From: Phenylobacterium sp.
Lineage (GTDB): Bacteria > Pseudomonadota > Alphaproteobacteria > Caulobacterales > Caulobacteraceae
DNA length: 50,876 nucleotides
NCBI RefSeq assembly: GCF_016793285.1
Contig: NZ_JAEUMO010000230.1
Coordinates: forward strand, 1 to 50,876
Direction: 5' to 3'
Part shown: positions 19,720 to 39,981 of the stretch, piece after piece
How the letters are laid out: each line of letters starts with the position of its first letter
How positions within the stretch are numbered: the first letter of the stretch is position 1
The notes under the pieces: model-generated
Told to the model about the DNA's origin: nothing
The model's input: the letters and a program-made list of their open reading frames with translations, nothing else
The model's database searches: none
Translations under genes and position numbers: made by a program

Positions 19720-19725
19720 AGGGCG

Positions 19726-20517: not shown

Positions 20518-20588
20518 GGCGAGCCTCCCCGGCGGTTGATCCGCCCCGGGCGCGAACCTGAGGATTTGGGCCCGCCTCGTCAATCCAT

Positions 20589-20602
20589 TTGATACCAACT
20601 CG
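20589..20602 (-). promoter_or_regulatory. Degenerate copy of the TetR-site motif, divergent promoter
   Basis: Read on the minus strand this is CGAGTTGGTATCAA, matching 12 of 14 bases of the CGACTTGGTTTCAA motif found next to tetR at 37294 and 38062. It lies six bases upstream of a TTGACG -35-like element (20583-20578) for the SDR and about 80 bases before the alkylsulfatase start. Two CATTTGA repeats (20586 and 20606) lie 20 bases apart around it. Confidence 0.4.
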
Positions 20603-20679
20603 GAACATTTGAATTGAACCGCGCTTCCGGTAAGCCTAGCGTCCGCGAACGCCGCGCATCAGACGGCGAAGGGGGAAGC

Positions 20680-22539: not shown

Positions 22540-22558
22540 TCCCGGAGACCCTTCGCCG

Positions 22559-23437: not shown

Positions 23438-23505
23438 GCGTCGCCATGCCTGCGCTCGACCTCGCCATGCCTCGCGGCTTCTGGCGCGGGGGGCGGAAAG
23501 ACGGG

Positions 23506-23521
23506 TATCGCTGAGGCGATA
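23506..23521. repeat. Short inverted repeat in the leader of the DUF3604 gene
   Basis: TATCGC and GCGATA flank TGAG, a perfect six-base stem with a tetraloop, 20 bases before the DUF3604 start and just before its AGGGGAACGAGGGGAA ribosome site. It could be a weak RNA hairpin or a regulator site in the 104-base gap after the crotonase. Confidence 0.3.
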
Positions 23522-23541
23522 GGGGAACGAGGGGAACGCCG

Positions 23542-25494: not shown

Positions 25495-26330
25495 GCCAAG
25501 ATCGACCGTCGCGGCTCTCGCGCGTCCTGCGGGAGCCGCTCGTCCAGTTCCTGGCGCTGGGCGCGCTGCTGTTCGCCGCCATCGCCTTCGCCAACCACCT
25601 GAAGCGGCCGGTGGTGCGCATCGACGCAGCCGAGATCGAGCAGCTCGCCACCTACTGGGAGCTCCAGAGCCAGCGGCCGCCGACCCGCGCCGAGCTTTCG
25701 GCCCTGATCCAAGAGCGCGTCGACGAAGAGCTCCTGGCCCGCGAGGCGATCCGCCTCGGGCTCGACAAGGACGACATGATCGTGCGCCGGCGGCTGGCCC
25801 AGAAGATGGCCTTCGCCAGCGAGGACATCGCCGCCATCCCGGAGCCGGACGAGAAGACGCTCCAGGCCTACTACGACGCCCACCGCGACCGCTACGCCAC
25901 GCCCGGGCGCGTGGCGATGCGCCACCTGTTCTTCAGCCGCGACCGCACCGGCGAGACGCCGCAGGCCGCCGCCGCCGCCGCGCTGGCCCGCCTCGAGGCC
26001 GGGGGGACCGCCGGCAGCGACCCGTCGCTCCTGCCCCTCACCTATGCCGATGTCGCCGAGACCGACCTCGACCGGGACTATGGCCCGCAGTTCGCCGCGG
26101 CCGTGCATGGGGCCGCCGAGGGCGCGTGGGTCGGGCCGGTCCCGTCCGCCTACGGGCTGCACCTGATCCGCGTGGAGCGGCGCCTGCCGCCGGTGTTCCC
26201 TCCGCTGGCGCAGGTGCGCGACGAAGTGCGCGCCGCCTGGCTGGCCGAACGGCGCCAGGACGAGAACCGCGCGTTCCGGACGTCCCTGCGCAAGCGCTAC
26301 AAGGTCGAGATCGCGGGCCTTCCGCAATGA
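25491..26330 (+). CDS. Membrane-anchored parvulin-type peptidyl-prolyl isomerase
   Basis: A 279-residue protein: one N-terminal membrane span (PLVQFLALGALLFAAIAFA), a helical SurA/PpiD-like region (LIQERVDEELLAREAIRLG), and a PpiC rotamase domain (GRVAMRHLFFSRDR through SAYGLHLIRVERR, residues about 140-245) ending in a helix. Parvulins isomerise prolyl bonds and aid folding of exported proteins. The start is GTG at 25491, which overlaps the DUF3604 stop (GTGA). The gene also overlaps HupE by ATGA, so DUF3604, parvulin and HupE are one tightly coupled unit. It may be a dedicated folding helper for the Pro-rich periplasmic DUF3604 protein or for HupE. Confidence 0.82.
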   Translation: MSQDRPSRLSRVLREPLVQFLALGALLFAAIAFANHLKRPVVRIDAAEIEQLATYWELQSQRPPTRAELSALIQERVDEELLAREAIRLGLDKDDMIVRRRLAQKMAFASEDIAAIPEPDEKTLQAYYDAHRDRYATPGRVAMRHLFFSRDRTGETPQAAAAAALARLEAGGTAGSDPSLLPLTYADVAETDLDRDYGPQFAAAVHGAAEGAWVGPVPSAYGLHLIRVERRLPPVFPPLAQVRDEVRAAWLAERRQDENRAFRTSLRKRYKVEIAGLPQ

Positions 26331-27334
26331 GGCTGCTGGCGGCGCTCTGCCTCGCCCTGACGGCGCTCTTCACCGCTGTCGCCACGGCGGACGCACATGA
26401 GGTTCGCCCGGCGCTGGTGCAGATCCGGGAGACCGGCCCAAACGCCTACGAGGTCGTGTGGAAGCGCCCGGTGGTCGGCGACATGGCGCTTCGCCTCGTC
26501 CCGCACCTCTCTGGGGGCGCCCTCGAAAAGCCGGCCGAGGTCGAGCAGGCCGCCCCGGGCTACGTCACCCGCGTCTGGCGGGTGCGAGACGGCCCGCCGC
26601 TGGCCGGCCAGACGCTGGAGATCGAGGGCCTGGCCCAGAGCGTCACCGATGTGATCGTCCGCGTCACCGCCCGCGACGGCGAGGCCTCTGACCACGTGCT
26701 GAAGCCGGCCGAGCCGCGGATGGTCCTGGGCGCGACGAAGCCCTCGGGCGTGGCGGTTCCCGCCTACCTCCTCCTGGGGGTCGAGCACATCCTGATCGGC
26801 ATCGACCACCTGCTGTTCGTGCTCGGCCTGCTGCTGCTGATCGGCCCCAACTGGAAGCTGGTGAAGGCGATCACCGCCTTCACCGTGGCCCACAGCCTGA
26901 CGCTCGCGCTGGCGGCGTTCGGGATCATCCGTTTTCCCTCGGCGGCGATCGAGGCGCTGGTGGCGCTGAGCATCCTGTTCGTGGCGCTCGAGTTGATGCC
27001 GTCGCGCCGCGCCGCCGGCGGCCTGGCGCAGCGACGGCCCTGGCTGATCGCCTTCACCTTCGGTCTGCTGCACGGCATGGCGTTCGCCGGCGTTCTCGCC
27101 GACATCGGCCTGCCCGCGAGCGCCGCGCCCGAGGCGTTGTTCCTGTTCAACGTCGGCGTCGAGATCGGGCAATTGACCTTCATCGCCGCCGTCCTGATCG
27201 TGATGGCGGCCGGCCGCCGACTGCTGGCGATGAGCCACCGCACCCTGCCCCGCTGGGCCGCGCTGGCCCCGGCCTACGCCATCGGCGGCCTGTCGGCCTA
27301 CTGGCTGATCGAACGCACCATGGCGGCGATCTAG
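26327..27334 (+). CDS. HupE/UreJ family protein with periplasmic N-terminal domain
   Basis: A 335-residue protein with signal peptide (LCLALTALFTAVATADAHE), a periplasmic domain of about 120 residues (RPALVQIRETG, VWKRPVVGDMALRL), then membrane helices with GVEHILIGIDHLLFVLG, VAHSLTLALAAFG, FGLLHGMAFAGVLAD and NVGVEIGQL. Same family and motif order as the proteins at 1213 and 14381, but closer in length to the latter. The mature N-terminus begins AHEVRP, with a His near the processed end that could bind metal. Overlaps the parvulin by four bases. Ends eight bases from the stop of the convergent sulfatase, with no terminator between them. Confidence 0.78.
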   Translation: MRLLAALCLALTALFTAVATADAHEVRPALVQIRETGPNAYEVVWKRPVVGDMALRLVPHLSGGALEKPAEVEQAAPGYVTRVWRVRDGPPLAGQTLEIEGLAQSVTDVIVRVTARDGEASDHVLKPAEPRMVLGATKPSGVAVPAYLLLGVEHILIGIDHLLFVLGLLLLIGPNWKLVKAITAFTVAHSLTLALAAFGIIRFPSAAIEALVALSILFVALELMPSRRAAGGLAQRRPWLIAFTFGLLHGMAFAGVLADIGLPASAAPEALFLFNVGVEIGQLTFIAAVLIVMAAGRRLLAMSHRTLPRWAALAPAYAIGGLSAYWLIERTMAAI

Positions 27335-27342
27335 TCTAGCGC

Positions 27343-28761
27343 CTATTCGGGCCCGCCGCCGTACAGCAGGCTACGCGGATTCACCGGCCGGCCCGCGACG
27401 AAGTCTTCGATCAGCCCCCTCACCTCGCCCGTCCCGGCGCGACCGCTCCGGTTCAACGAGCCCCAGGCGGGCGGCGGCATCGCGTCGGACCAGCGCGTCC
27501 AGTCGGCCTTCAGCCGCGCCAGCACTGCGGGCCGCGCCGCGGCGAGATCGTTTCGCTCACCGACGTCGCGGGAAAGATCGAACAGCCACCACCGGTCCTC
27601 GGCCTTCACCGCCTTCCAGTCGCCCCGGCGCACGGCGCCCTGTGGGCCCAGCCGCCAGAAGAGCGGCCGGTCCGCCGGCCCGGCGCCGCCGGCGAGAACC
27701 GGCGTCAGGTCGACGCCATCGAGGTCCGGCGTCCGGGGCGAACCCGCCAGCGCCAGGGCGGTCGCGGTGATGTCGAAGCCGGTCCCGACCGCGGAGGAGA
27801 CACGCCCCGCCGGCAGCCGCCCGGGCCAGCGGAAGATGGTGGCGACGCGCACGCCGCCCTCCAGCACCGTGCCCTTCATGCCGTTCAGCGGCCGGTTGCT
27901 GCTGGTCGTCTGCCAGGTGGGGCCGCCGTTGTCGCTGGTGAAGACGATCAGGGTGTCGCGGGCGACGCCTGCCGCGTCGACCGCCGACACGATGCGCCCG
28001 ACCGCGTCGTCCAGGGCCGCCAGCATGGCGAGGTAGGTCCGCCGCTTCGGGTCCGCCTGTGCCGCAACCCGGTCGAGGTAGCGCGCCGTGGTCTGCAAAG
28101 GGGCGTGGACAGCGTTGAAGGCGGCGTAGAGGAAGAACGGCCGCTCGCGGTTGGCCTCGACGAAGGCGACGGCCTCGTCGGTGAAGGCCTCGGTCGTGTG
28201 TGCGGGCATGGGCGCCGGCGACGTGCCCCGCAGGATGGCCTTGTCGCCGCTGGCGCCATCGGGGGTGTAGGCCATGGCCCCGCCCACGAAGCCGTAGAAG
28301 CTGTCGAAGCCGCGGCCGGTCGGCAGGTTCCCGGGCAGGTAGCCTGTGTGCCACTTGCCGACCGCCCCCGTCGCGTAGCCCTGCGCCTTCAGCCGCTCGG
28401 CCAGCGTGCCCCCGTGATCGCGCGGGAGGCCGACGGCCGGGTCTTCATACTGCGCCGGCCCGGCATTGTTCTCGAACCCGAACCGCTGCTGGTAGCGCCC
28501 CGACAGCATCGCGGCCCGCGAGGGGCCGCAACTCGGATGGTTCGCGTAGAAGTCCGTCATCCGGACCCCCTGCGTCGCCAGCCGGTCGATGTTGGGCGTC
28601 GCCACGTCCTTGCCGCCCTGGCAGCCGAGATCGCCGTAGCCGAGATCGTCGGCGACGATGAGGACGATGTTGGGCCTGCGCCCCGCCCCGAACGCCGGCC
28701 CCGCCAGGGCGGAGGCGGCGAAGAGCGCGAGGAGCCGGCGCCGGGCGAGCGGCGCGGTCAC
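27343..28761 (-). CDS. Exported sulfatase, formylglycine type
   Basis: A 472-residue sulfatase of the alkaline-phosphatase fold. An N-terminal Tat-like signal (ARRRLLALFAASALAGPAFG) precedes NIVLIVADDLGYGDLGCQGG with the Asp pair for the metal. The active-site signature is SCGPSRAAMLSGR, so Cys78 should be converted to formylglycine; GKWHTGYLP and FTSDNGGPTW hold further ligands. Acts in the periplasm on a sulfate ester. The start is GTG at 28761, overlapping the stop of DUF3604 copy B (GTGA). No formylglycine-generating enzyme is encoded in this window, so maturation must depend on a gene elsewhere. Last gene of the roughly 10-kb minus-strand operon. Confidence 0.87.
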   Translation of the reverse strand: MTAPLARRRLLALFAASALAGPAFGAGRRPNIVLIVADDLGYGDLGCQGGKDVATPNIDRLATQGVRMTDFYANHPSCGPSRAAMLSGRYQQRFGFENNAGPAQYEDPAVGLPRDHGGTLAERLKAQGYATGAVGKWHTGYLPGNLPTGRGFDSFYGFVGGAMAYTPDGASGDKAILRGTSPAPMPAHTTEAFTDEAVAFVEANRERPFFLYAAFNAVHAPLQTTARYLDRVAAQADPKRRTYLAMLAALDDAVGRIVSAVDAAGVARDTLIVFTSDNGGPTWQTTSSNRPLNGMKGTVLEGGVRVATIFRWPGRLPAGRVSSAVGTGFDITATALALAGSPRTPDLDGVDLTPVLAGGAGPADRPLFWRLGPQGAVRRGDWKAVKAEDRWWLFDLSRDVGERNDLAAARPAVLARLKADWTRWSDAMPPPAWGSLNRSGRAGTGEVRGLIEDFVAGRPVNPRSLLYGGGPE

Positions 28762-30683
28762 GCGCCCGGCTCGAACCAGATGGGCGAGGACCAGGCGCGC
28801 TCCATGATCGTCGCGGCCAGCCGCGGGCTGGGCTCGGTCCCGTTGCGCAGCGCGTCCCAGGTCGACCAGCGGCAGGACGGGTTCTCCAGCACGCGAACGT
28901 AGTAGAAGGCCCTCTGCCTCGGATTGAACTCAGGGTCGCGCCAGACCGTGCGAAGCTGGACGTCGCCCTTGTAGCGGTCGGGCTCGCAAGTCTTCATGTT
29001 CACCCCAGCGCCGTTGTCGGGGCAGCGGGCGTTCGCGCCGACCTTGAGGCCATCCGAGCAGGCGACGTCGAACACCTTTTCCTTGGCCTGGCCGTTCTCG
29101 ATCCAGCCCTTCACCACCTGCGCGCGTTGCAGGTAGCCGCCGCGCGGATCGCGCACGGCCCAGACGAGGAAGCTGGGCGCGCGGCCGCGGGAGGCCAGCA
29201 GGTCGCCGCCCATGGGGACGCCGTGGGCATAGGCCTGGCGCACCGTGTCGGCGCGGGTCAGCAGGTCGCCCGGGAAGTCGTAGCCGGCGAAGAAGCGGAC
29301 CTTGATGCGCGGACCCGACGTCGCGAACGTCTCCTTGCGCCGCAGCGCCGCATAGATGGAATCGCGGCTGTTCTCCTCGGCCCAGACACCCGAGAGACCC
29401 GAGCCCGCGCGGGCGGAGTACTGGATCGGCCCCGGGCTCGGCCAGTCGGCGGCGCCCTTCGGCTTCGCCGAGCCCCGCTGCTCGGGTGCGCCGTCGCGCA
29501 GGCCCGATGCGCCGGCGTAGGTGTTCTCGTCCACGAAGCCCGGGGTGGCGTTGTGGGTGTCGGTCCCGCCCACGAAGCCTAGCTTGAACGGGTTCACCCC
29601 CAGCTTCTCGCGCTGGAGGATGCCGTCCTCCAGGGCCCGGCGGACGTAGCTGCCGGGGAACTTCGTGACCATCTTGTTCAGCGCGATGTAGCGCTCCCAG
29701 ATCTCGAAGTTGGCCCACTCGTCGTTCGGCGAGAGCGAGGGGTGGGTCTCGGACGTCCCCTTGGTCTGGCTGATCTCGACCAGCGGCTCGTTGCGCGCCC
29801 GCATCTCGGCGTAGGCGCGGTCGACCGGCTTGCCGTTCAGCCGCACGCTGTCGAACATGATGCCGTCGGAGCCGTTGGAGTTGTGCGGGATCGCCAGCGC
29901 CTCCATGCCCTTGGCGCGCCAACTGTCCATCGCCTGCCACAGCAGCTCCGGATCGTAGACGCTGGTCGCCGAGAACGGCGCGGCCGGCACGCGGGCGGTC
30001 TTGAAAATGACGTTGCGGTGCAGGTTCTTGCCTTCGAGCGAGGCGGTGAACTCGTATCCGACGAAGGTGGTGAAGCGGCCGGGGTGGTTATGACGCGCGG
30101 CGGCGTCGCGCACCTCCCGCCAGCCCTCGGCGACGATCGTAGGGTCGTCGTACTCCTTCGGCATCGTCCCTTCGCGCTTGGCGCTGGTGAAGGCCTCGAA
30201 GCCCTTCTGGGCGGCGACGGGATCGGTGGCGATCAGATTCTGGCTGAACGGCAGCTTGCCGAGGGGGTGCCCGGGCCGGGCCGCCGCGCTGACCACCGCG
30301 AGGTACTCCGAGTGGTCGGTGACCGCCGTGAAGTCGAGCGGCGCGCCGGCCAGCCGCACGGTGTAGCCCGACGGGTGGCCGATGGGCTCGCCCTGGGCGA
30401 AGCGGTAGGCGTCGTCGGGGGTGCGGCGCGCATTGGAGATGTAGGCGTCGTTCGACAGGTAGGTGTGGACGTGCAGGTCGCCGAAATAGGCGTTGCGCTC
30501 GGCATTCCAGCCCGGCAGGTGCGCCGGCGCGGCGGCGGCCGTCGCCTTCGGCGCGGGCTTCGCGGCCGGCGACGGCGGCGGGGCCGGCGGCTTCTGGGCC
30601 GTCGAGGCGCTCACCGCGACGCCGGTCGCGACCAGCGCGGCGACGCCGGCGGCGACGACGGCGGGGACAAGCCGGCCGCTCAC
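28758..30683 (-). CDS. DUF3604 protein (PHP-like metallohydrolase), copy B
   Basis: A 641-residue paralogue of copy A. An N-terminal span (VPAVVAAGVAALVATGVAV) and Pro/Ala-rich linker precede the core: YFGDLHVHTYLS, FTAVTDHSEY, LAIPHNSNGSD, GTSETHPSLS and GFVGGTDTHNATPG. I start at GTG 30683, which overlaps the stop of the upstream sulfatase (GTGA); a frame reaching 31928 is a shadow of that gene. Lies between two sulfatases with overlaps on both sides, which ties it to sulfate ester breakdown more firmly than copy A. The 3' third carries the tract converted with copy A. Confidence 0.8.
   Translation of the reverse strand: MSGRLVPAVVAAGVAALVATGVAVSASTAQKPPAPPPSPAAKPAPKATAAAAPAHLPGWNAERNAYFGDLHVHTYLSNDAYISNARRTPDDAYRFAQGEPIGHPSGYTVRLAGAPLDFTAVTDHSEYLAVVSAAARPGHPLGKLPFSQNLIATDPVAAQKGFEAFTSAKREGTMPKEYDDPTIVAEGWREVRDAAARHNHPGRFTTFVGYEFTASLEGKNLHRNVIFKTARVPAAPFSATSVYDPELLWQAMDSWRAKGMEALAIPHNSNGSDGIMFDSVRLNGKPVDRAYAEMRARNEPLVEISQTKGTSETHPSLSPNDEWANFEIWERYIALNKMVTKFPGSYVRRALEDGILQREKLGVNPFKLGFVGGTDTHNATPGFVDENTYAGASGLRDGAPEQRGSAKPKGAADWPSPGPIQYSARAGSGLSGVWAEENSRDSIYAALRRKETFATSGPRIKVRFFAGYDFPGDLLTRADTVRQAYAHGVPMGGDLLASRGRAPSFLVWAVRDPRGGYLQRAQVVKGWIENGQAKEKVFDVACSDGLKVGANARCPDNGAGVNMKTCEPDRYKGDVQLRTVWRDPEFNPRQRAFYYVRVLENPSCRWSTWDALRNGTEPSPRLAATIMERAWSSPIWFEPGA
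29030..29339 (-). repeat. Near-identical tract shared with 24913-25222 (inverted)
   Basis: Partner of the tract in DUF3604 copy A. Identity breaks sharply at both ends (upstream of CGCAAGGAG and after GCGCGAACG), as expected for a gene-conversion patch rather than uniform constraint. Confidence 0.85.
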
Positions 30684-32197
30684 GACGCCGCCCCCGCGGC
30701 GCGGGCCGGACCGTCGGCGCCCGTGGGCACATTGGGAAACCGCATGACGCTCTCCTCGTACTCGCGCTGGATCCGCGCCACAGGGCGCCGCACCCAGATG
30801 TTGGTGGTATAGATGTTCCAGAGTTCCTTGGGGTCGTTCTCCAGGTCGAAGACCCAGGGACTCGGCAGCTCTTCCAGGTAGGAGTTGGTGACCACCTGGC
30901 CGGAGGCCACCACCTGCCCCCGCGCCGGCTCGCGCACGGCGAAGTGGACCTTGAAGTTCCTCCACTTCACCGCCAGCAGGCGGTTGGCGTGGAAGATCAT
31001 CAGGTGCTCGCGGTTCGACGTGGGCTTCGGCCCGAACAGGAAGTCGCCCTGGTCGATGGAGTCCACGAAGCGGTCCGTCGGCACGCGCGCGCCCGCGCCG
31101 GCCACGCCGGCGAGGGTCCGGTAGAAGTCCTGGATCGAGACCATCCCGTTGCTGACCCGCCCCGGCTGCGTGCGGCCCGGCCAGCGGACGATGCAGGCTG
31201 TGCGGATCGCGCCCTCCCAGCCGCTCGGGAACTCGCCGCGGAACGGGCCGGAGTCGGCGCGCCCGCCGAACTCTACGCCGATGCCCTGGAAGCTCTGCGG
31301 GCCGTTGTCGCTGCAGAAGACGACGATGGTGTCGTCCTTCAGGCCCGCCTTCTCGACCGCGTCGATCACCCGTCCGGCGTTGGCGTCGATCTCGGCCAGC
31401 GCGTTCTGGTAGGTCGAGCGGCCGGGCCTGGTGAAGTCCGGGTGCGTCAACGGCGGCTCGTGCGGCAGGGTGAAGGGCAGGTAGAGGAAGAACGGCTTGC
31501 CGCCCCCCGCCTGGCGGCGGATGTAGGCCTCGGCGCGCTCGGTGATCTCGCGGTCCATCAGCGCGCGGGCGGCGCGGTCGTAGGTGCGCACCGGGCGGCT
31601 CGCCTCGCCCTTCTTCCCCTCCATCGCCGACTGCGGCGTGAACTCCTTCGGGTCGAAGCCGGGCTGGATCGGCCAGTTCACCTCGCCGCTCGAGCGCGGG
31701 ATACCGAACCACTCGTCGAAGCCCTGGCGGGTCGGGGCGCGGTCGTCGCCCGAGCCCAGGTGCCACTTGCCGTAGCAGGCGGTGGCGTAACCGGCGTCGG
31801 AAAGCAGTTCGGCCAGGGTGTATTCCCACGGCGCGATGCCGTCCTTCAGGCCGCGCGACTCCACGATCGAGGTGCCGGTGCGGACCGGCATGCGCCCCGT
31901 CAGCAGCGCCGAGCGGCTGGGGGTGCATTCCGGCTCGGAATTGAAGTTGGTGAGCCGCATGCCTTCGGCCGCGAGGCCGTCCAGGCGCGGCGTGGGCACG
32001 CCCCGCAACTCGCCGCCGCCGTAGCAGCCCAGGTCGCCGTAGCCGAAGTTGTCGACCATCATGAAGACGATGTTCGGCGCCTTGCCCGCGCCGCCGCGCC
32101 GCTGCGCCGGCTGGGCGGCCGCGGCCGATGCGGCGGCGAACCCGGCCGATCCGGCGAGCAGTGCGCGGCGGGTGGGCAAGGGACGGGACGGCGGCAT
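30680..32197 (-). CDS. Exported sulfatase, formylglycine type
   Basis: A 505-residue sulfatase with a Tat-like signal (LPTRRALLAGSAGFAAASAAA), the metal motif NIVFMMVDNFGYGDLGCYGG and the signature ECTPSRSALLTGR, with Cys91 as the residue modified to formylglycine. In the first motif the usual Asp-Asp is Asp-Asn (VDN), as in several known arylsulfatases. GKWHLGSG and FCSDNGPQ follow. C-terminal half is of the arylsulfatase A type (DFYRTLAGVAGAG, DLENDPKELWN). Start ATG at 32197 has TAGGAG six bases upstream, 20 bases after the aminotransferase stop. Only moderately like the other sulfatase in the operon, so the two probably attack different sulfate groups. Confidence 0.87.
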   Translation of the reverse strand: MPPSRPLPTRRALLAGSAGFAAASAAAAQPAQRRGGAGKAPNIVFMMVDNFGYGDLGCYGGGELRGVPTPRLDGLAAEGMRLTNFNSEPECTPSRSALLTGRMPVRTGTSIVESRGLKDGIAPWEYTLAELLSDAGYATACYGKWHLGSGDDRAPTRQGFDEWFGIPRSSGEVNWPIQPGFDPKEFTPQSAMEGKKGEASRPVRTYDRAARALMDREITERAEAYIRRQAGGGKPFFLYLPFTLPHEPPLTHPDFTRPGRSTYQNALAEIDANAGRVIDAVEKAGLKDDTIVVFCSDNGPQSFQGIGVEFGGRADSGPFRGEFPSGWEGAIRTACIVRWPGRTQPGRVSNGMVSIQDFYRTLAGVAGAGARVPTDRFVDSIDQGDFLFGPKPTSNREHLMIFHANRLLAVKWRNFKVHFAVREPARGQVVASGQVVTNSYLEELPSPWVFDLENDPKELWNIYTTNIWVRRPVARIQREYEESVMRFPNVPTGADGPARAAGAAS

Positions 32198-32217
32198 CCG
32201 GTACTCCTACAGCAGTC

Positions 32218-33546
32218 TCAGCCCAGGCCCACGGCGAAGCTGCGCTCGAACGCGTCGAGGACGGCGGGCACGTCGTCCATCGACAGGCACAGCGGCGGAA
32301 CCATGCGCAGCACGCTGCGGTGCGGACCGGACTTCGAGACGACGATGCCCTGCCGGCGCGTCTCCTCGAAGACCGCCGCGGTCTCCTCGGTGGCGGGGGC
32401 CTTGGTCTTGCGGTCCTTCACCAGTTCGACCGCCATCATCAGGCCGAGGCCGCGCACGTCGCCGATGATCGGGTGGCGCTTCTGCAGCTCCACGAGGCCG
32501 GCCTTCAGCGTTGCGCCCACCGCCTTGGCGTTGGCCTGCAGGCGCTCTTCGCGGATCACCTGCAGCACGGCGCGGCCGGCGGCGCAGGCCACCGGATTGG
32601 CGCCGTAGGTGTGGAACAGGAACTTGTCGGCCATGCACTCGGCGATGCGGCGGTGCGTCACCACCGCGCCCAGCGGGATGCCGTTGCCGATACCCTTGGC
32701 CATGACCACGATGTCGGGGACGATCCCGCTGGCCTCGAAGGCCCAGTAGCTGTCGCCGGTCCGCGCGAAACCCGACTGCACCTCGTCGACGATCATCAGG
32801 CCGCCGGCCGCCCTCACCCGCTCCGCGGCGCCGGCGATATAGGCCGGGGGCATCTCGACGATGCCGCCGTAGCCCTGCACGGTCTCCAGGATCATGCCGG
32901 CGATGCGGCCCGAGGTGGAGGTCTCGATCGCGCGCTCCACCTCGTCGAGGTAGGGCTGGATGTCCTGGCCGAAGAGGCCGCGGTAGGCGTTGGGCTCGGG
33001 CAGGAAGGCCACGCCGCCCAACTGCGGCACGTTGTGGCGGAAGCCGGCGATGCCGGTCAGCGCCTGCGCCCCGAACGTGGCGCCGTGATAGCTGGTGCGC
33101 AGCGACAGCATGTCGATCGAGCCCGTGTAGGCCCGCGCCATCAGGAGCGCGAGGTCGATGGCCTCGGCGCCCGAGTTGGTGAAGTGGACCACCCATTCGT
33201 GGCCCGCCGGCATCGTCGCCGCCAGCTCCTCCGCCAGGTGCGCCGGCGTCGGATGGTAGAACATGGTGGTGCAGTGGGTAAGCAGCGCCGCCTGGTCCTG
33301 CACCGCGGCGACCACCGCCGGATGCGCGTGGCCCACCGAGATGCAGAGGTTCATGCCCAGGAGGTCGATGTATCTCCGGTCGTTCTCGTCCCAGAGATAC
33401 TGCATCTGCCCGCGACGGAAGATCAGCGGGGTCTTGTATGGGACGAACCGCCGCTGCGAAGCCGCGTAGTAGCGGTCACGCCGCGCGACGATCCCTTCGG
33501 TCGACCAGTCCGTGGGCAGCGGGGCGAGGGCTGTTCCGGAGTCCAC
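32218..33546 (-). CDS. Class III PLP-dependent aminotransferase
   Basis: A 442-residue fold-type I transaminase of the AGXT2-like class III group. Visible features: NSGAEAIDLALLMARAYTG (phosphate-binding region), SYHGATFG, VDEVQSGFARTG and VVMAKGIGNGIPLGAVV with Lys284 as the PLP lysine. GTG at 33546 is taken as start because GAAGGAG lies eight bases upstream; a frame reaching 34281 overlaps the decarboxylase and is spurious. The group transfers the amino group from omega-amines or beta-amino acids to pyruvate or glyoxylate. Placed 32 bases after an S1P-lyase-like gene, it could remove the amine from an amino alcohol or amino acid released by the sulfatases. Confidence 0.84.
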   Translation of the reverse strand: MDSGTALAPLPTDWSTEGIVARRDRYYAASQRRFVPYKTPLIFRRGQMQYLWDENDRRYIDLLGMNLCISVGHAHPAVVAAVQDQAALLTHCTTMFYHPTPAHLAEELAATMPAGHEWVVHFTNSGAEAIDLALLMARAYTGSIDMLSLRTSYHGATFGAQALTGIAGFRHNVPQLGGVAFLPEPNAYRGLFGQDIQPYLDEVERAIETSTSGRIAGMILETVQGYGGIVEMPPAYIAGAAERVRAAGGLMIVDEVQSGFARTGDSYWAFEASGIVPDIVVMAKGIGNGIPLGAVVTHRRIAECMADKFLFHTYGANPVACAAGRAVLQVIREERLQANAKAVGATLKAGLVELQKRHPIIGDVRGLGLMMAVELVKDRKTKAPATEETAAVFEETRRQGIVVSKSGPHRSVLRMVPPLCLSMDDVPAVLDAFERSFAVGLG

Positions 33547-33578
33547 GGGATCGTCTCCTTCCGACGTCGGGGGCGTGC

Positions 33579-34838
33579 TCAGTAGGTGGCGGCGAGGTCG
33601 CTCGTGGCCTTGGTCGCGCGGACCTCGCCGATGCTGTCGGTCATGTCGGTCAGCCAGGCCTCGCGCGCGGGGGCGTGCTGCATCGACAGCATGGTGTGCA
33701 TGCCGCGCGGCGCGCTGGTCAGGCCGGGGATCCAGCCCCGGGCCCTCATCCGCTCGGCCACCGCGTAGATGTCGACGACGTTCGATCCGATGTTGAGGAT
33801 CGTCACGTCCGGCTCGGCCCAGAGCTCCAGTTCCGGGATGGCGCGGATGCCGGCGACGTAGGCGTCGGTCATGGCCGAGAGATCGCGGGCCGCCTGCTCG
33901 TAGCCGCTGGTCCCTAGGTGGTTCAGCACCGCCCAGGCCGCCGCGACGGCGCCCGCCGGGCGCGAGCCCGACATGGTGGCGGTGGTGTACATGCCGCTCC
34001 CCCACGTGCCGAGGCGGAAGGTCGACCGCTCCAGATCCGCGCCGTCGCGGAAGAACACGGTGGACGAGGGCTTCGGCGCGAAGCCGAACTTGTGCAGGTC
34101 CGCCGACATCGAGCAGACCCCGGGATGACGGAAGTCGAAGGCTGGCGTTCCGCGGCCGATCCGCTCGAAGAACGGCGCCACCCAGCCGCCGACGCAGGCG
34201 TCGACATGCATCCAGATGCCGCGGTCCAGTGCGAACGCCGCGATCTCGCCGATGGGGTCGATCACCCCGTGCGGAAAGCACGGCGCCGAGCCCACGATCA
34301 GGAAGGTGTTCTCGTCGACCAGCCCCTTCAAGTCGTCGACGTTGCAGCGGAGGTCCGGGCGCAGGCCTGCCCGCCGCACTTCCACGTCCATCAGGATCGC
34401 GGCCTTGTCGAACGCGGGATGGCCGGAGACGGGCATCACCATGTTGAGCGGCTGACCCGCCCCGCCCTTGCCAGCGGCGCGGTGGCGGTCGCGGGCCGAC
34501 TTCACGCCCAGCAGGATGCTCTCGGTGCCGCCGGTGGTGAAGACCCCGCGGCCGCCTTCCGGCGCGTGCAGCAGGTCCAGCCCGTAGTCGATGACGTCGC
34601 GCTCCATCTGGGCGATGCCCGGATAGGCCCGCGCGGCGCCCAGCGCATTCTCGGAGAAATGCTCCATGAAGGCGCGCTTGCCGACCTCATAGGCCTCCTC
34701 GTTCGCCATGAAGAAGAAGATCGCGGTGCGGCCGCTCTTCCAGTCGGCGTCTGCGGCGGTGCGCTGGGCCATCTGGGCCTTGAGATCGGCCCAGGCGACG
34801 CCACCCGCCGGGAATGCGGCGCGGGTGTGCTTGCTCAT
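33579..34838 (-). CDS. PLP-dependent decarboxylase / sphingosine-1-phosphate lyase-like enzyme
   Basis: A 419-residue group II PLP enzyme. FTTGGTESILLGVKSARD binds the phosphate, HVDACVGGW has the Asp facing the pyridine nitrogen, and SMSADLHKFGFAPKPSSTV contains Lys250, the PLP lysine; this HKFGFAPK motif is that of sphingosine-1-phosphate lyases (HKYGFAPK). The N-terminal membrane anchor of eukaryotic lyases is absent, as in bacterial forms. So it may cleave a phosphorylated long-chain amino alcohol or decarboxylate an amino acid; the sequence does not decide. It sits 26 bases after the TonB receptor and before the aminotransferase in one operon. Confidence 0.78.
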   Translation of the reverse strand: MSKHTRAAFPAGGVAWADLKAQMAQRTAADADWKSGRTAIFFFMANEEAYEVGKRAFMEHFSENALGAARAYPGIAQMERDVIDYGLDLLHAPEGGRGVFTTGGTESILLGVKSARDRHRAAGKGGAGQPLNMVMPVSGHPAFDKAAILMDVEVRRAGLRPDLRCNVDDLKGLVDENTFLIVGSAPCFPHGVIDPIGEIAAFALDRGIWMHVDACVGGWVAPFFERIGRGTPAFDFRHPGVCSMSADLHKFGFAPKPSSTVFFRDGADLERSTFRLGTWGSGMYTTATMSGSRPAGAVAAAWAVLNHLGTSGYEQAARDLSAMTDAYVAGIRAIPELELWAEPDVTILNIGSNVVDIYAVAERMRARGWIPGLTSAPRGMHTMLSMQHAPAREAWLTDMTDSIGEVRATKATSDLAATY

Positions 34839-34864
34839 CGTTTTCGCTCCCTCGTCCGGGACGG

Positions 34865-37198
34865 TCAGAACTTGGCCTTCAGCTCCACGCCGATCTGGCG
34901 CGGGTCGTTCAGCGTGCAGCGCAGCGCCGTGGCGCCGGTGACGGCGTTGTTGAGGCCGAAGGCGGCGTTGTTGGGCTGGTTGAAGATGCCCGTGCAGAAG
35001 GTCTCGTCAGTCAGGTTCTGACCGAAGACGGCGGCCTCCCAGCGCTGCTCGGGTCCGCGGATCGCGATGCGCGCGCTGAGCTGCTGGTAGCCCTTCTGCA
35101 GCGCATCGGGATTGTTGTCGCCCGACGAGGCGAGGTTGACCTTGCTGGAGAAGGCCAGGTCCGCGCGGGCGAACCAGCTCCAGCCGTTGGAGAGTTCGCC
35201 GGTGTACTGGCCCGACAGCGTGCCCTGCCACTTCGGCGAGTAGGGCAGCCGCTGGCCCGAGAGATCCTGCGCGCCGCCGAGGCCGGGCAGGCCGGGCGCG
35301 CCCCGGAAGTCCAGGTACTCGGAGTCGAGGTAGGTCCCGGCCAGGCCCACCTGCAACGCCGGGAGCGGACGCGTGGTCAGCTCCCATTCGACGCCCTGCT
35401 GGCGGGCCTTGCCGTTGTTTCGCGTGCGGAACTGGAGGCCGTCGAAGCTGCGGAACTGCAGGTCGTTGATGTCGGACCGGAACAGCGTCGCGTTGGCCAC
35501 GAGGCGCCGCTCGAACAGTTCGGACTTCACGCCCAGCTCCCAGTTCTCGACGGTCTCGGCGTTGAAGCTCCGCGCCGCGGCGCCCACCGCCGCGGTCGTG
35601 CCCGGCGCCGAGTCGAAGCCGCCGGACTTGAAGCCGGTGGAGAAGCTCGCAAACACCATCACGTCGTCGTTCGGCTTGTAGTTGCCGGCGATGCGGTAGG
35701 TGACCTTGTCCTCCTTCAGCGCCATGTCGGTCACCTCGGCCGCCTGGGCCGCGGCGGGGTTGCGGGTGATGCCGCGGTACTTGGCGGTCTTGTCGTCCTC
35801 CGAGTAGCGGATGCCGCCGGTGACGGTCAGTTGCTCGGTCGGCTTGAAGTTGGCCTGGGCGTAGGCCGCGACCGACTCCGTGTCCTGCGTGAAGACGTAG
35901 TACGAGGCGCCGACTTTCGTGTTCGCCCGGCATTGCGTCAGGCGCGCGGCGGTCGAGGTGTTGCGGATGAACACCTCGCAGTACTCGTTGGTCAGGTCGA
36001 TGTTCTGACCGATGTCGTAGGCTTCCTCGTAGTAGAAGAGGCCCGCGACGAAATTCAGCCGGCCGTTCAGCAGCGTGTCGGGCGACAGCAACTGCAGCTC
36101 CTCGGAGTGGTTCTGGCTGTCGGCGAAGGTGGTGCGCCGCTGCAGCTCCAGCGGGATGTTCCCGTTCGAGGCCTGGTACTGGATGTTCTTCCAGTCACGG
36201 TAGCCGCTGATCAGCTTGAGCTGGTAGCCGCCGGCCATGTCCCACGTCAGGTCGCTGGCCACGCCCGTCTGGTAGTCCTTCAGGTCGCCTTCGGTCGACT
36301 GGCGCACATGGCGCGAATAGGTGTCCGAGGTGTAGGGCAAGAGGCCGGTCAGGGGGCCGGCGCCGTCCGGATCCAGGCGCGTCTGCCAGGCGGCCAGCGT
36401 GGTCGGCGTCACGGTGCTCGAGACGACGGTGATGGTGTTGTAGCCGTCGCCGCTCAGGTTCTGATAGTCGCCGCGCAGGGTCCAGGTGACGTCCGGCGTG
36501 ATGTCCCACTGGATGGCCGCGCGCGCCGAGAAGCCGTCGTTGCGGCCCATGCGCTTGCCGGTCAGGTCGTTGCGGCCGTAGCCGTCGCCCTCGTAGCCCA
36601 GGATCGAGACGCGGGTCTTCAGCGTGTCCGTGATCGGCAGGTCGCCCATGACCGAGAGGCGCTTCACGCCGTATTGGCCGTAGGTCGCCGAAACCTCGCC
36701 GCCCAGTTCGTCGCCCGGAGCGGTCGTGCGGATCTGGACCGCGCCCATCGAGGCGTTGCGGCCGAACAGGGTGCCCTGCGGCCCGCGCAGCACCTCCACG
36801 GAGCTGATGTCGTTGAGGCCCGCCAGCAGCGAGCCGATGCGCGGCACATAGACGCCGTCCACGAAGGTCGCGACCGAGGGCTCCACCGCCGTGTTCCCGC
36901 TGGTGCCGATGCCGCGCATCATGATCCGCGTGTTGCTGGTGTTCGACGAGGTGGCGAGGTAGAGGCTGGGCGTGATCCGGCGCAGGTCGCGGATGTCCTG
37001 GACCCCCGCGGCCTCCAGCGTCTCGCCGCTGAACGCCGCCACCGAGATCGGGACGTCCTGGAGCTTCTCCGCCCGCTTCTGGGCGGTGACGACCACCTCC
37101 TCGACGCCGACGCCTGCGTCCGCGGTCTGGGCCTGCGCCGCCAGCGGCGCACCGAGCGCCGCGATGGCCACTGAAAGAAAGAGCGTGCCACGCGCCAT
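34865..37198 (-). CDS. TonB-dependent receptor
   Basis: A 777-residue outer-membrane receptor: signal peptide (RGTLFLSVAIAALGAPLAAQA), TonB-box region EEVVVTAQKR, plug (LQDVPISVAAFSGE, RIMMRGIGTSG, VEVLRGPQGTLFGRNASMG) and barrel ending in a terminal Phe (IGVELKAKF). This receptor type is abundant in sphingomonads and Caulobacterales and is often linked to uptake of lipids, steroids or aromatic compounds. ATG at 37198 follows AGGGGG; the frame up to 37261 lacks a ribosome site. First gene of the minus-strand operon running to 27343, with tetR divergent. It should bring the operon's substrate across the outer membrane. Confidence 0.88.
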   Translation of the reverse strand: MARGTLFLSVAIAALGAPLAAQAQTADAGVGVEEVVVTAQKRAEKLQDVPISVAAFSGETLEAAGVQDIRDLRRITPSLYLATSSNTSNTRIMMRGIGTSGNTAVEPSVATFVDGVYVPRIGSLLAGLNDISSVEVLRGPQGTLFGRNASMGAVQIRTTAPGDELGGEVSATYGQYGVKRLSVMGDLPITDTLKTRVSILGYEGDGYGRNDLTGKRMGRNDGFSARAAIQWDITPDVTWTLRGDYQNLSGDGYNTITVVSSTVTPTTLAAWQTRLDPDGAGPLTGLLPYTSDTYSRHVRQSTEGDLKDYQTGVASDLTWDMAGGYQLKLISGYRDWKNIQYQASNGNIPLELQRRTTFADSQNHSEELQLLSPDTLLNGRLNFVAGLFYYEEAYDIGQNIDLTNEYCEVFIRNTSTAARLTQCRANTKVGASYYVFTQDTESVAAYAQANFKPTEQLTVTGGIRYSEDDKTAKYRGITRNPAAAQAAEVTDMALKEDKVTYRIAGNYKPNDDVMVFASFSTGFKSGGFDSAPGTTAAVGAAARSFNAETVENWELGVKSELFERRLVANATLFRSDINDLQFRSFDGLQFRTRNNGKARQQGVEWELTTRPLPALQVGLAGTYLDSEYLDFRGAPGLPGLGGAQDLSGQRLPYSPKWQGTLSGQYTGELSNGWSWFARADLAFSSKVNLASSGDNNPDALQKGYQQLSARIAIRGPEQRWEAAVFGQNLTDETFCTGIFNQPNNAAFGLNNAVTGATALRCTLNDPRQIGVELKAKF

Positions 37199-37257
37199 GA
37201 GCGATTCCCCCTGAAGTGCCGGCCCCCGCTGTCCTCCGCGGTTGTTCCGACCCGGTA

Positions 37258-37286
37258 ACAATGCGCTCGGATTGCCGGCCTGTCAA
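37258..37286 (-). promoter_or_regulatory. Candidate promoter of the receptor operon
   Basis: A perfect TTGACA (37286-37281, minus strand) is followed after 17 bases by CATTGT (37263-37258), a poor -10. The start would lie about 55 bases before the receptor ATG. The TetR-site motif begins eight bases upstream of this -35, a position where a bound protein could block or recruit polymerase. Confidence 0.4.
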
Positions 37287-37293
37287 ATTATGC

Positions 37294-37308
37294 TACGACT
37301 TGGTTTCA
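37294..37308 (+). promoter_or_regulatory. Candidate TetR operator, copy 1
   Basis: TACGACTTGGTTTCA, identical over 15 bases to copy 2 at 38062-38076. It lies between the divergent TonB receptor and tetR genes. The symmetric second half seen in copy 2 is changed here (TTTCACG instead of AGTCTACG). Confidence 0.55.
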
Positions 37309-37368
37309 TTTCACGCCGGCCGACGCGCACGGCTACATCACAACCGGAAAACGAGAGCGGAGAACCAG

Positions 37369-38061
37369 GTGGCGAAATCGACCGCCGTGAGCGCGGCGCG
37401 CCCGAAGACCGGCCGCGGATCGAAACCCCGGGTCAACGTCCCCGAACGGCGCGAGGCGTTCCTGCTCGCCGCCAGCCGGGTGTTCCTGGAACGTGGCGTG
37501 GGCACGGCCACCATGCAGGACGTCGCCGACGCCGCCGGCGTGCCCAAGATCCTGATTTACCGCATCTTCCGCTCGAAGGACGAGTTGCTCGACGCGATCC
37601 GCGACAAGGTGATCGAGAAGATTCACGAGGTCTGGGCCGAACCCGCCCGCACCTACGGCGGCCGCCTGCGCGGCCTCGTGCTGGCGGCCCGCGAGCAGCC
37701 CGAGCCGTTCCTGCTCGTCCTGCGCTACAGCCAGGCCGGCGTCGAAGGCCTGGACTGGCGGCAGAAGGTGGAAGACGCCATCGCCGCCTACACGCGCGTC
37801 CGCTGGTTCGAGCCGGGACCCGACGCTCCGCCCGGCGCCGGCGCCCGCGCCAACTACGCCTCGCGCCTCAACGTCGGCCAGTTCATCGACCTGACCATTC
37901 GCTGGATCGAGGGCGAGGGCGGCCTCGATGACGAGACCCGTTTCCGCTACGTGGCGCGCATCCAGCGCGAGTTCCACCGCGCCTCCCGCGAGGCGTTCCA
38001 GCTCGGCACGGTGAACATCGACTACCACCTCCCCGGCGAGGGGCCGCACGACGACAATTGA
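37369..38061 (+). CDS. TetR family transcriptional regulator
   Basis: A 230-residue regulator. A basic N-terminal tail (AARPKTGRGSKPRVN) precedes the helix-turn-helix (TATMQDVADAAGVPKILIYR, then FRSKDELLDAI, residues about 45-80); the rest is an all-helical ligand domain. I start at GTG 37369, with GGAG eight bases before; the frame open from 37216 crosses the promoter region. It is divergent from the TonB receptor operon and is followed after 63 bases by an APC permease. A 15-base motif repeated on both sides of the gene is its likely binding site. The ligand is unknown, probably the operon's substrate or a product. Confidence 0.82.
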   Translation: MAKSTAVSAARPKTGRGSKPRVNVPERREAFLLAASRVFLERGVGTATMQDVADAAGVPKILIYRIFRSKDELLDAIRDKVIEKIHEVWAEPARTYGGRLRGLVLAAREQPEPFLLVLRYSQAGVEGLDWRQKVEDAIAAYTRVRWFEPGPDAPPGAGARANYASRLNVGQFIDLTIRWIEGEGGLDDETRFRYVARIQREFHRASREAFQLGTVNIDYHLPGEGPHDDN

Positions 38062-38080
38062 TACGACTTGGTTTCAAGTC
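38062..38080 (+). promoter_or_regulatory. Candidate TetR operator, copy 2 (symmetric)
   Basis: Contains GACTTG-GTTT-CAAGTC (38065-38080), six-base arms with a four-base centre, directly after the tetR stop codon and 45 bases before the permease ATG. Its left 15 bases repeat copy 1 exactly. Confidence 0.55.
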
Positions 38081-38124
38081 TACGGTCCCGCCGCGCAAAG
38101 CCGCCGCGGGCGGCCGGGGGAACC

Positions 38125-39435
38125 ATGTTGCAAGCCGCATCGTCACCGCGGGCCATGGGCGTCGCCACGCTCGCGGCCGTCGGCGTGAACAGCATCATCG
38201 GCGCCGGCTTCTATCTTCTGCCCGCCCAGTACTTCGCGACGGCCGGCGCCTGGGCGCCGATCATCCTGCTGGTCGTCGGCGTCCTGATGTTCGCCATCGC
38301 GCTCTGCTTCGCCGAGGTCGGCAGCCGGTTCCGCGAGAACGGCGGCGCCTACCTCTACGTCCGCAGCGCCTTCGGTCCCCTCGCCGGCTTCGAGATCGGC
38401 TGGGTGCTCTACGTCTCGCGGGTCATCTCGACGGCCTCGATGTTCGCCGCGCTGGTCATGCTGCTGGAGGTCACCACCGGACGGTCGCTGGACGTCGTCG
38501 CGACCGCCGCGGTCGTCGTCCCGATGGCCACGGTGATCGCCGCGTTCTCGGTGGTCGGGGGACGCACCAACGCAGGGCTCCTGACCACGCTCGCCATCGT
38601 CAAGGTCGCGCCGGTGGTGCTCCTGATCGTCGTGGCGCTTCCCGCGCTGGACCCCGTGGCCCTCGTGCCGGCCCAGCCGCTCACCTGGCACGCGGTCGCG
38701 GCCGCCGCGGCGATGGGGATGTTCTCCTATGCCGGCTTCGAGAACCTCGCGATCCCGGCCGGCGAGGCGCGCGACCCGCAGCGCGACGTGCCCCGCGCCC
38801 TGGTGACCTCGCTCGCGGCCGGCGTCGTCCTGCTGGTCGGCGCCAACGCGGTCGCGATCGGACTCGTGCCGGACCTCGCGCTCAGCCGCCTCGCCCTCGG
38901 CGACGCCGCGGGCGCGGTGTTCGGGCCGACCGGCTGGTGGGCCATCGCGGCGACCGCCATCCTGGCCGTAGTCGGCAGCAACGCCGGCGCGCTGCTCGCC
39001 AACTCCCGCCTGCTTCAGAGCCTCGCCGACCAGGGCGACATCGGCGCCTGGTTCGGCCGCCGCTCGGCGCGCTACGGCACCCCCGTCGTCGCCATCGCGG
39101 TCAGCACCGTCCTCGTCGTGGCGCTCACGCTCACCGGCACCTTCCAGTCGCTGGTGGTGCTCGCCGTGGGCACGCGGGTCCTGGTCTACCTCAGCGTCGC
39201 GCTGGCCTCGATCCGCCTGCGCCGGGCCGAGCGCACCGGCGCCGCGCCGGCCGCCACCTACCGCATGCCCGCCGCGCCGCTGGTGCTCGCCATCGTCGTG
39301 CTGGGCTGCGCCGGCATCCTGGCGCAGATGACCCTGCCCCAGGCCGTCGCGATCGGCGCAAGCCTTGTCGTCGGGCTGGTGCTCTTCGGCGCCCAGCGCC
39401 TGCCGCGCCGGGCGTCGCAGCCCACGCCGCCCTGA
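38125..39435 (+). CDS. APC family amino acid/amine permease
   Basis: A 436-residue membrane protein with twelve hydrophobic segments. The opening VGVNSIIGAGFYLLPAQYF is the APC helix 1 motif (GxG-type unwound region that binds the amino and carboxyl groups), and MGMFSYAGFENLAIPAGEA matches the helix 6 region of amino acid permeases; the conserved RDPQRDVPRAL loop follows. ATG at 38125 has GGGGGAA upstream; the frame from 38068 crosses the operator. Being downstream of a shared operator and next to PLP enzymes, it probably imports the amino compound that the aminotransferase and lyase use. Confidence 0.84.
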   Translation: MLQAASSPRAMGVATLAAVGVNSIIGAGFYLLPAQYFATAGAWAPIILLVVGVLMFAIALCFAEVGSRFRENGGAYLYVRSAFGPLAGFEIGWVLYVSRVISTASMFAALVMLLEVTTGRSLDVVATAAVVVPMATVIAAFSVVGGRTNAGLLTTLAIVKVAPVVLLIVVALPALDPVALVPAQPLTWHAVAAAAAMGMFSYAGFENLAIPAGEARDPQRDVPRALVTSLAAGVVLLVGANAVAIGLVPDLALSRLALGDAAGAVFGPTGWWAIAATAILAVVGSNAGALLANSRLLQSLADQGDIGAWFGRRSARYGTPVVAIAVSTVLVVALTLTGTFQSLVVLAVGTRVLVYLSVALASIRLRRAERTGAAPAATYRMPAAPLVLAIVVLGCAGILAQMTLPQAVAIGASLVVGLVLFGAQRLPRRASQPTPP

Positions 39436-39438
39436 CGT

Positions 39439-39981
39439 CTACAGCGCCCAGACCCGCCCGATCTCCTTCAGCGGCACGCAGCCCTTGTAGTCGCCGGGCA
39501 CGGGATCGTAGCGCGCCGCCTTGGTCGCGCCGGCCTCGGAGGTGAAGTAGCCGACGGTCGTCAGGTCCTTCAGCACGCCGAAGAAGTGACCGCGCTGGGC
39601 CCTCGCCTCGCCGTCGTAGCGGGCGAGCAGCGCCGCCTGCTGGGCCGGCGCGAGCGCCAGGAACGGCTGGCCGTGCGCCGCCCTGGCGTCGGCGTCGATC
39701 CGGTCGAGCCCGGCCTTCACGGCGTCCCGCTGCGCCGCGCCCGACCATTCGGCGAGGTTGCGGTCGATGAAGGCGGGCACGCCGGCCTCGCGGGCCCCGG
39801 GCGTGTCGCTCGCGGGCATGATCAGCTCGGCCACCACCTCCAGACGCCGCGCCTGGTCGGCGGACAGCGCCTTGGGCGACCAGCCGAGCGCCGGCGTGGC
39901 CTGGGCGGCCGCCGCGGCGGGGATGGCGAGCGCGGTCCAGAGCGCGCCGAAGGTCAGCAGCGTGTCGCGACGGGTCTGCAT
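39439..39981 (-). CDS. Gluconate 2-dehydrogenase subunit 3 family protein
   Basis: A 180-residue protein with a twin-arginine signal (QTRRDTLLTFGALWTALA) and a domain typical of the small subunit of membrane-bound FAD sugar dehydrogenases: VAELIMPASDTPGAREAGVPAFIDRNL, FFGVLKDLTTVGYFTSE and YDPVPGDYKGCVPL. The small subunit carries the Tat signal and takes the GMC catalytic subunit with it to the periplasm. ATG at 39981 overlaps the GMC stop (ATGA), giving fixed stoichiometry. No cytochrome c subunit gene follows, so the electron acceptor must be encoded elsewhere or be a soluble carrier. Confidence 0.85.
   Translation of the reverse strand: MQTRRDTLLTFGALWTALAIPAAAAAQATPALGWSPKALSADQARRLEVVAELIMPASDTPGAREAGVPAFIDRNLAEWSGAAQRDAVKAGLDRIDADARAAHGQPFLALAPAQQAALLARYDGEARAQRGHFFGVLKDLTTVGYFTSEAGATKAARYDPVPGDYKGCVPLKEIGRVWAL

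Follow-up and report, generated by a model that had tools for sequence, protein, structure and literature searches.

The contig of Phenylobacterium sp. analyzed here (NZ_JAEUMO010000230.1, 50,876 nucleotides, henceforth the window) carries at positions 18289–39435 a set of genes that, judging from sequence comparison, probably constitutes a single catabolic regulon under TetR control, directed at a sulfated organic compound, with an optional amine module added to a sulfatase core. An initial annotation of the window had proposed a minus-strand operon of six genes headed by divergent tetR and permease genes, and the open reading frames place all eight genes where they were claimed to be. The operon starts with the gene for a TonB-dependent receptor (34865–37198; PF00593/PF07715) and continues with genes for an enzyme similar to sphingosine-1-phosphate (S1P) lyase and dependent on pyridoxal phosphate (PLP) (SPL; 33579–34838; PF00282), a class III PLP enzyme that could be an aminotransferase or a lyase (AT3; 32218–33546; PF00202, 302 bits), a sulfatase of the formylglycine (FGly) type (sulfatase A; 30680–32197; PF00884, 176 bits), a predicted exported PHP-type metal-dependent hydrolase (DUF3604b; 28758–30683; PF12228, 700 bits) and a second FGly-type sulfatase (sulfatase B; 27343–28761; PF00884, 209 bits). 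The gaps from the TonB gene to sulfatase A are 26, 32 and 20 bases, followed by two 4-base overlaps, as had been stated. On the plus strand are tetR (37369–38061; PF00440, 50 bits) and the gene for an APC-family amine/amino acid permease (38125–39435; PF13520, 118 bits), the start codons of both being our choice. Pfam and NCBIfam searches confirmed the protein families originally assigned to all eight genes.

Co-regulation is suggested by a palindromic sequence, the putative TetR operator, which is predicted at each promoter of the regulon. Two such sites (37243–37260 and 37291–37308) are located in the divergent promoter between the TonB receptor gene and tetR, and another one precedes the APC gene (38059–38076); all three were detected with both a pattern and a matrix. 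The string ACGACTTGGTTTCA is common to these two promoters, and the 18-base string of the APC site has 2 matches in the window at up to 3 mismatches, compared with a mean of 0.01 in 100 shuffled sequences. That the TonB operon, tetR and APC are all preceded by this putative operator supports the earlier proposal of one regulated unit. Further sites were picked by eye from intergenic regions of related loci (G, L and C numbers denote genomes, loci and contigs, respectively, with G000 for the genome of the window), and a ten-site matrix found a site in the divergent promoter between a short-chain dehydrogenase (SDR) gene and an alkyl sulfatase gene (20590–20607), which had not been used to build it; other loci, 1,207 kb in total, yield scores of at least 18 at 0.008 per 10 kb. 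With a matrix made from seven sites of L042 and L043, the top four places in the window were 20590, 38059, 37291 and 37243 (22.8, 21.5, 16.9 and 15.8, respectively), whereas none of 60 Markov shuffles reached 15.8 (best 15.7, median 10.8). The pattern TGNTMCSANNNSGKWWCA was written with the window sites in view, so that its matches in the window arise by construction and only its scarcity elsewhere is informative. It occurs at 4 places in the 4.49-Mb genome of the window (271 contigs), all inside this locus, and of the 18 places in the six regulon-bearing genomes together, 16 lie in the locus (3/3 in G011 and G031, 2/3 in G443 and G444, 2/2 in G445); the reversed pattern, taken as a control, gave 1 match in 10 genomes. 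The TetR helix-turn-helix is nearly identical across six loci, among which whole-protein identity to the window regulator goes down to 60%. In L043, the interval from sulfatase A to SPL contains two operator-like sites, which the pattern does not catch.

Because such sites are found at the SDR/alkyl-sulfatase, TonB/tetR and APC promoters, the putative TetR regulon extends over about 21 kb. Apart from the TonB operon, tetR and APC, it is predicted to include two units that diverge from the site at 20590. On the minus strand are the genes for the SDR (19726–20520; PF00106, 132 bits) and an MFS transporter (18289–19719; PF07690, 156 bits). On the plus strand are those for a metallo-beta-lactamase (MBL)-type alkyl sulfatase (20680–22539; PF14863, PF14864 and PF00753 with 212, 77.5 and 72 bits, respectively), an enoyl-CoA hydratase/isomerase (crotonase; 22559–23437; PF00378, 173 bits), a paralogue of DUF3604b denoted DUF3604a (23542–25494; PF12228, 724 bits), a PpiC-type peptidyl-prolyl isomerase (25491–26330; PF13145, 71 bits) and a HupE/UreJ-like membrane protein (26327–27334; PF13795, 157 bits; start set by comparison with L175). 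Thus, the initial annotation was correct about the operon, but its coordinates were too narrow, the co-regulated unit appearing to begin at about 18289, and it overlooked both the arm formed by the alkyl sulfatase, crotonase, SDR and MFS genes and the separability of the PLP genes, sulfatase A and APC.

This separability is apparent from a congener, G031, which is collinear with the window at 88–89% DNA identity over 18289–30688, 34817–38049 and 39440–41147, the last segment being bounded by the end of the compared stretch. Missing in G031 are 30689–34816, with SPL, AT3 and sulfatase A, and 38050–39439, with APC, in place of which there are about 235 bases; DUF3604b directly follows the TonB gene. 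No SPL match was found anywhere in the G031 genome, and the best AT3 match reaches only 40%. Hence, in this one genome pair, four genes at two separate positions are jointly present or absent, and SPL-AT3-sulfatase A plus APC is, by this comparison, a presence/absence module on the sulfatase core. The genes retained in G031 that we assign to the core are those for the TonB receptor (93% identical), DUF3604b, sulfatase B, the MFS transporter (97%) and the SDR. The joint absence of APC and the module enzymes fits the earlier suggestion that an amino product enters the cell through the permease.

Named-species genomes were scanned with SPL aligned to its orthologue from G011, and the best 80 loci of 140 relatives were kept. 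In the stretches read, an AT3 orthologue (67–93%) occurs near SPL in 5 of these 80 (L040, L041, L042, L043 and L046), and weaker class III genes (26–36%) in 7 of the remaining 75; four of the five AT3-bearing loci also have a sulfatase A orthologue (69–88%) and a DUF3604 gene. SPL, AT3 and sulfatase A are therefore found together in five species, two of them with altered order. The initial annotation had named as contradicting its proposal a situation in which the PLP genes and sulfatases never occur together; this is not the case because both co-occur in L040, L041, L042 and L043. The Phenylobacterium metagenome-assembled genomes (MAGs) represented by L039 (identical to L040, a contig of G011) and L041 share the window order TonB-SPL-AT3-sulfatase A-DUF3604 and the divergent tetR-APC pair. 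Adjacency of sulfatase B is not visible there because both contigs stop inside DUF3604b; separate contigs of the L041 genome carry the DUF3604b end, sulfatase B, HupE and PpiC ordered as in the window (L181), and MFS, SDR, alkyl sulfatase, crotonase and DUF3604a (L208). Sulfatase A is divergent from SPL-AT3-DUF3604 in L043. L042 has the order SPL-AT3-sulfatase A, with sulfatase B and a gene of the formylglycine-generating enzyme (FGE) type 4–6 kb away, and here, too, a crotonase gene adjoins the DUF3604 genes. The island in L042 (1148–15472, Phenylobacterium RI_411) also holds genes for FmdA/AmdA, a PfkB-like kinase (recognized by eye) and a second class III PLP enzyme, along with the FGE gene.

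Among 60 relatives, including the genome of the window, SPL at more than 80% and AT3 at more than 90% are limited to the window genome and G011. Sulfatase B orthologues (62–80%) are found in G031, G443, G444 and G445. In 385 genomes drawn from the class, again with that of the window included, AT3 at 52–66% is present in three further genomes, adjoining SPL and PhnCDE in G146, a DUF3604-like gene in G138 and, on a 5.9-kb contig, an FAD oxidoreductase in G130. In the G146 locus (L174, contig C90, 1177–9165), the gene order is PhnCDE phosphonate-type ABC transporter, MocR-like regulator, AT3 (52%), SPL (46%); the enzyme pair thus seems to be linked with another route of uptake here. In Flavimaribacter (L046), the SPL-AT3 pair lies beside TRAP transporters, and a remote member of the sulfatase family (27% identity to sulfatase B) is encoded 8 kb from SPL. 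Location next to PhnCDE or TRAP carriers hints at a small polar amine as the substrate. In a Lautropia MAG (L063, 3518–5471), an SPL homologue (43%) has immediately after it a sulfatase gene with 40% identity to sulfatase B, which is incomplete because the contig ends there.

The reaction of the module depends on its two PLP enzymes. Among solved proteins, the nearest to SPL are the S1P lyases 5eud and 3mad (251 and 250 bits). The substrate phosphate site of S1P lyase is reported to comprise Y105, H129, A103, N126 and K317 (PMC6148460). SPL has the PLP lysine, K250, in an HK motif and retains N126 and K317 as N64 and K256; the other three of the five residues are changed (Y105 to F43, A103 to F41 and H129 to G67). 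All seven SPLs paired with AT3 have F43, N64, G67, R70, K250 and K256, and F41 as well, with the exception of Y in L046. In 102 aligned rows, gathered with the window SPL as bait and including a few duplicates, H occurs in 2 rows and G in 79 at the H129 place, A in 4 at the A103 place, Y in 28 at the Y105 place and K in 97 at the K317 place. In a quick maximum-likelihood tree, the AT3-paired SPLs fall in one clade of ten distinct loci (SH-aLRT 99), the unpaired members being L044, L045 and L054; five label changes were counted in this tree, partly from unlabelled duplicate rows, and there are long branches elsewhere. In L054 (8004–12766, Tianweitania), the SPL homologue (58%) is flanked by genes for gamma-glutamyltranspeptidase and an MlrC-like protein.

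Given that the best NCBIfam model of SPL is the MfnA tyrosine/aspartate decarboxylase (215 bits, below the cut-off of 299), it is possible, although in our view doubtful, that SPL decarboxylates an anionic amino acid and AT3 transaminates the resulting amine, for example, from serine-O-sulfate or phosphoserine via an ethanolamine ester, or from cysteate via taurine. The small-molecule carriers that adjoin the pair elsewhere are compatible with this scheme, and bulky F41 would suit a smaller head group. However, MfnA scores only 83 bits among solved proteins, compared with 251 for StSPL, and the K317 equivalent is, as noted, nearly always lysine. Another point against it is that AT3 is far from the solved taurine aminotransferase (160 bits versus 292 for its closest solved relative). 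The same scores make a taurine or sulfonolipid route, in which SPL would yield taurine, less likely, although it is conceivable.

Several observations weigh against the single-regulon interpretation. The L042 and L043 training sites were chosen by eye for likeness to the window motif and are therefore partly circular, with 20590 and 37243 belonging to no training set. The pattern also has off-locus places in G443 and G444 and a total of 4 in four other genomes (two each in G021 and G022, none in G032 and G033), and G032 has homologues of TonB (partial), MFS, SDR and alkyl sulfatase without the pattern. G011, the contigs of which break inside DUF3604, yielded no orthologue of sulfatase B (best 43% overall, 47% over part), and L042 and L043 have no APC orthologue within the stretches read. 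The four other whole-module loci are all designated as MAGs. Finally, the SPL-AT3 pair in L046 and L174 is without orthologues of these sulfatases, so that its reaction need not involve sulfate. This last finding, along with the stand-alone core of G031, would also be expected of a sulfatase operon for general scavenging that had received unrelated PLP genes by insertion; nevertheless, we consider such independence unlikely, given that sulfatase A and APC are missing together with the PLP genes in G031, that the grouping of SPL, AT3 and sulfatase A survives the reordering seen in L042 and L043, and that operator-like sites separate sulfatase A from SPL in L043.

AT3 has a class III PLP fold, and its closest solved relative is 6tor, human ethanolamine-phosphate phospho-lyase (ETNPPL), with 292 bits, followed by 230 bits for the next one. 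Two stretches common to 6tor and 5g4i, NNVxxVGH and GKPMGNGHP, defined from our alignments rather than from a paper, are replaced in AT3 by GMNLCISVGH and AKGIGNGIP; a congener protein (L162) carries both and scores 378 bits to 5g4i. We considered AT3 as a proven phospho-lyase and dropped this assignment because the GPHR stretch that it shares with 6tor is not conserved in the orthologues and the two other stretches differ; identity with PbfA (NF049939) was rejected as well (253 bits versus a cut-off of 525). The class III members characterized so far are reported to be mostly aminotransferases, together with a few lyases (PMC8154272).

The initial annotation guessed at a sphingoid-like substrate, and the mammalian route offers a precedent: a sulfated sphingolipid would be desulfated, SPL would act as a long-chain-base-phosphate lyase to give phosphoethanolamine and a fatty aldehyde, and AT3 would be the phosphoethanolamine phospho-lyase. 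The best solved relatives of the two enzymes, StSPL and ETNPPL, agree with this scheme, as do the kept PLP lysine, N126 and K317, the alkyl sulfatase, SDR and crotonase, which suit a lipid chain, and the PhnCDE transporter beside the pair in G146. With respect to the changed pocket, it is reported that the S1P lyase of B. pseudomallei has Q at the H129 place, that replacements at the Y105 and H129 places in yeast cause only partial impairment, and that the A103-place mutant is inactive, possibly through misfolding (PMC6148460). Still, three pocket residues are replaced in SPL, AT3 is devoid of both phospholyase stretches, and TRAP, Phn and APC carriers are ill-suited to a C18 base; furthermore, no kinase is found among the annotated regulon genes, the rest of the genome not having been searched for one. 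The pocket changes and the carriers thus weaken the sphingoid guess, which we regard as improbable, whereas another part of the earlier interpretation, a co-regulated unit for uptake, desulfation and amine processing, is well supported by the comparison. A sulfur counterpart of the S1P-lyase/phospholyase route is very unlikely. In it, SPL would split a beta-hydroxy amine carrying sulfate or another anionic group, and AT3, as an ammonio-sulfo-lyase of a kind not known to us, would eliminate sulfate and ammonia from ethanolamine-O-sulfate or a similar amino sulfate. A chemical precedent is gamma-aminobutyrate transaminase, a class III enzyme in which ethanolamine-O-sulfate is subject to elimination and which it inactivates.

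C-x-P-S-R is the motif of FGly sulfatases, and both PF00884 proteins have it, as CTPSRSALLTG at residue 91 of sulfatase A and CGPSRAAMLSG at residue 78 of sulfatase B, which identifies them as type I (S1) enzymes. Tat-like export signals were recognized in both, by eye only. The nearest solved proteins are 7aj0 for sulfatase A (243 bits) and S1-type sulfatases, including carrageenan sulfatases, for sulfatase B (276–282 bits). FGE-type maturation genes are present in the window genome (PF03781 matches on C141, C240 and C64), and the 15 PF00884 matches there indicate that sulfatases as such are common in it. The alkyl sulfatase, with HSHVDH at residue 147 and the dimerization and C-terminal domains, belongs to type III and has no export signal, likewise judged by eye. 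We rejected it as a core marker because 35 of the 60 relatives, including the window genome, match at E 1e-150; only G031, G011 and G032 exceed 80% besides the window genome, and in L205–L207 (G033, G034 and G014; 71–73%) no other core gene adjoins it.

From the protein families, the most likely scheme for this regulon of core and amine module is as follows. The TonB receptor would take up a sulfate ester, on which exported sulfatase B and the DUF3604 hydrolase would act in the periplasm; the products would enter the cell through the MFS carrier, and the cytosolic alkyl sulfatase, SDR and crotonase would process the carbon chain. Where the module is present, sulfatase A would remove further sulfate in the periplasm, and the freed small amine would be imported by the APC permease. 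SPL might then cleave a C–C bond, or decarboxylate, at the PLP-bound amine carbon, and AT3 might remove the nitrogen by transamination or elimination, with TetR presumably repressing all units until it binds the compound or a product.

The initial annotation stated that no described pathway has this gene set, and we likewise found none in a search limited to openly (CC-) licensed literature. The mammalian sphingolipid exit route, S1P lyase plus ethanolamine-phosphate phospho-lyase, involves the same two PLP families, adjacent in the window, but differs in the substituted Y105, A103 and H129, in the two AT3 stretches, and in the addition of sulfatases and TonB uptake here. In the fumonisin catabolic cluster of Sphingopyxis, a sphingoid-like amine is handled by a TonB receptor, a permease and a class III aminotransferase, together with a regulator; this cluster uses a carboxylesterase and is not known to contain sulfatases, DUF3604 or an S1P-lyase-like enzyme. 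Type III alkyl sulfatases of sodium dodecyl sulfate degradation, namely SdsA1/SdsAP, share the MBL domain, PF14863/PF14864 and HxHxDH with the window enzyme, which, unlike them, lacks an apparent export signal and has a predicted operator in common with a TonB operon of FGly sulfatases, DUF3604 and PLP enzymes. Sulfatases A and B resemble the polysaccharide-type S1 sulfatases that accompany TonB receptors, but no glycoside hydrolase is found among the annotated regulon genes.

The predicted regulon places DUF3604, two FGly sulfatases and the alkyl sulfatase under one predicted operator, and the natural presence/absence genome pair separates the amine module from the sulfatase core, so that the substrate question becomes testable with few constructs. 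TetR combined with a single 18-bp site would act as a sensor of the inducer, and the locus may bring to light a reaction new to two PLP families usually labeled S1P lyase and aminotransferase.

To our knowledge, no function has been assigned to DUF3604. The structure model of DUF3604b (pLDDT 85.5) gave, in a Foldseek search, a sole match at E ≤ 0.001, the PHP-like protein 3e38 (E 4.6e-7), followed by 7ug9 (E 1.9e-3); only the PHP part is supported because the TM-score is low (0.31 of query). H26, H28, D78, H79, E166, H222, D330 and H332, which by our own assignment are metal ligands, are invariant or nearly so in 29 rows. Fold model and ligands together support a PHP-type metallohydrolase, with a score below the cut-off for the CehA/McbA metallohydrolases (NF038032; 20.3 bits versus a cut-off of 80). 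DUF3604 has 7 matches, about five genes, in the window genome and occurs in 24 of the 60 relatives, including the window genome. The 3' 645 bp of DUF3604a (24850–25494) and DUF3604b (28758–29402) form an inverted repeat with 91% identity, compared with 79–85% in two other shared parts, for which gene conversion is a possible explanation; the repeat may also be why contigs of related MAGs end within these genes.

Outside the predicted regulon, the window contains a second HupE-like gene followed by a gene for an 890-amino-acid protein with 58 bits to DUF3604 (14309–18249), and a gene related to the latter (25%) adjoins AT3 in L173. A trio of PpiC-, HupE- and DUF3604-like genes was also detected in G031 (contig C26, L177 4320–8262); the 13 kb examined there contain no homologue of the alkyl sulfatase or of either FGly sulfatase. 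This recurrence suggests that PpiC, HupE and DUF3604 work together.

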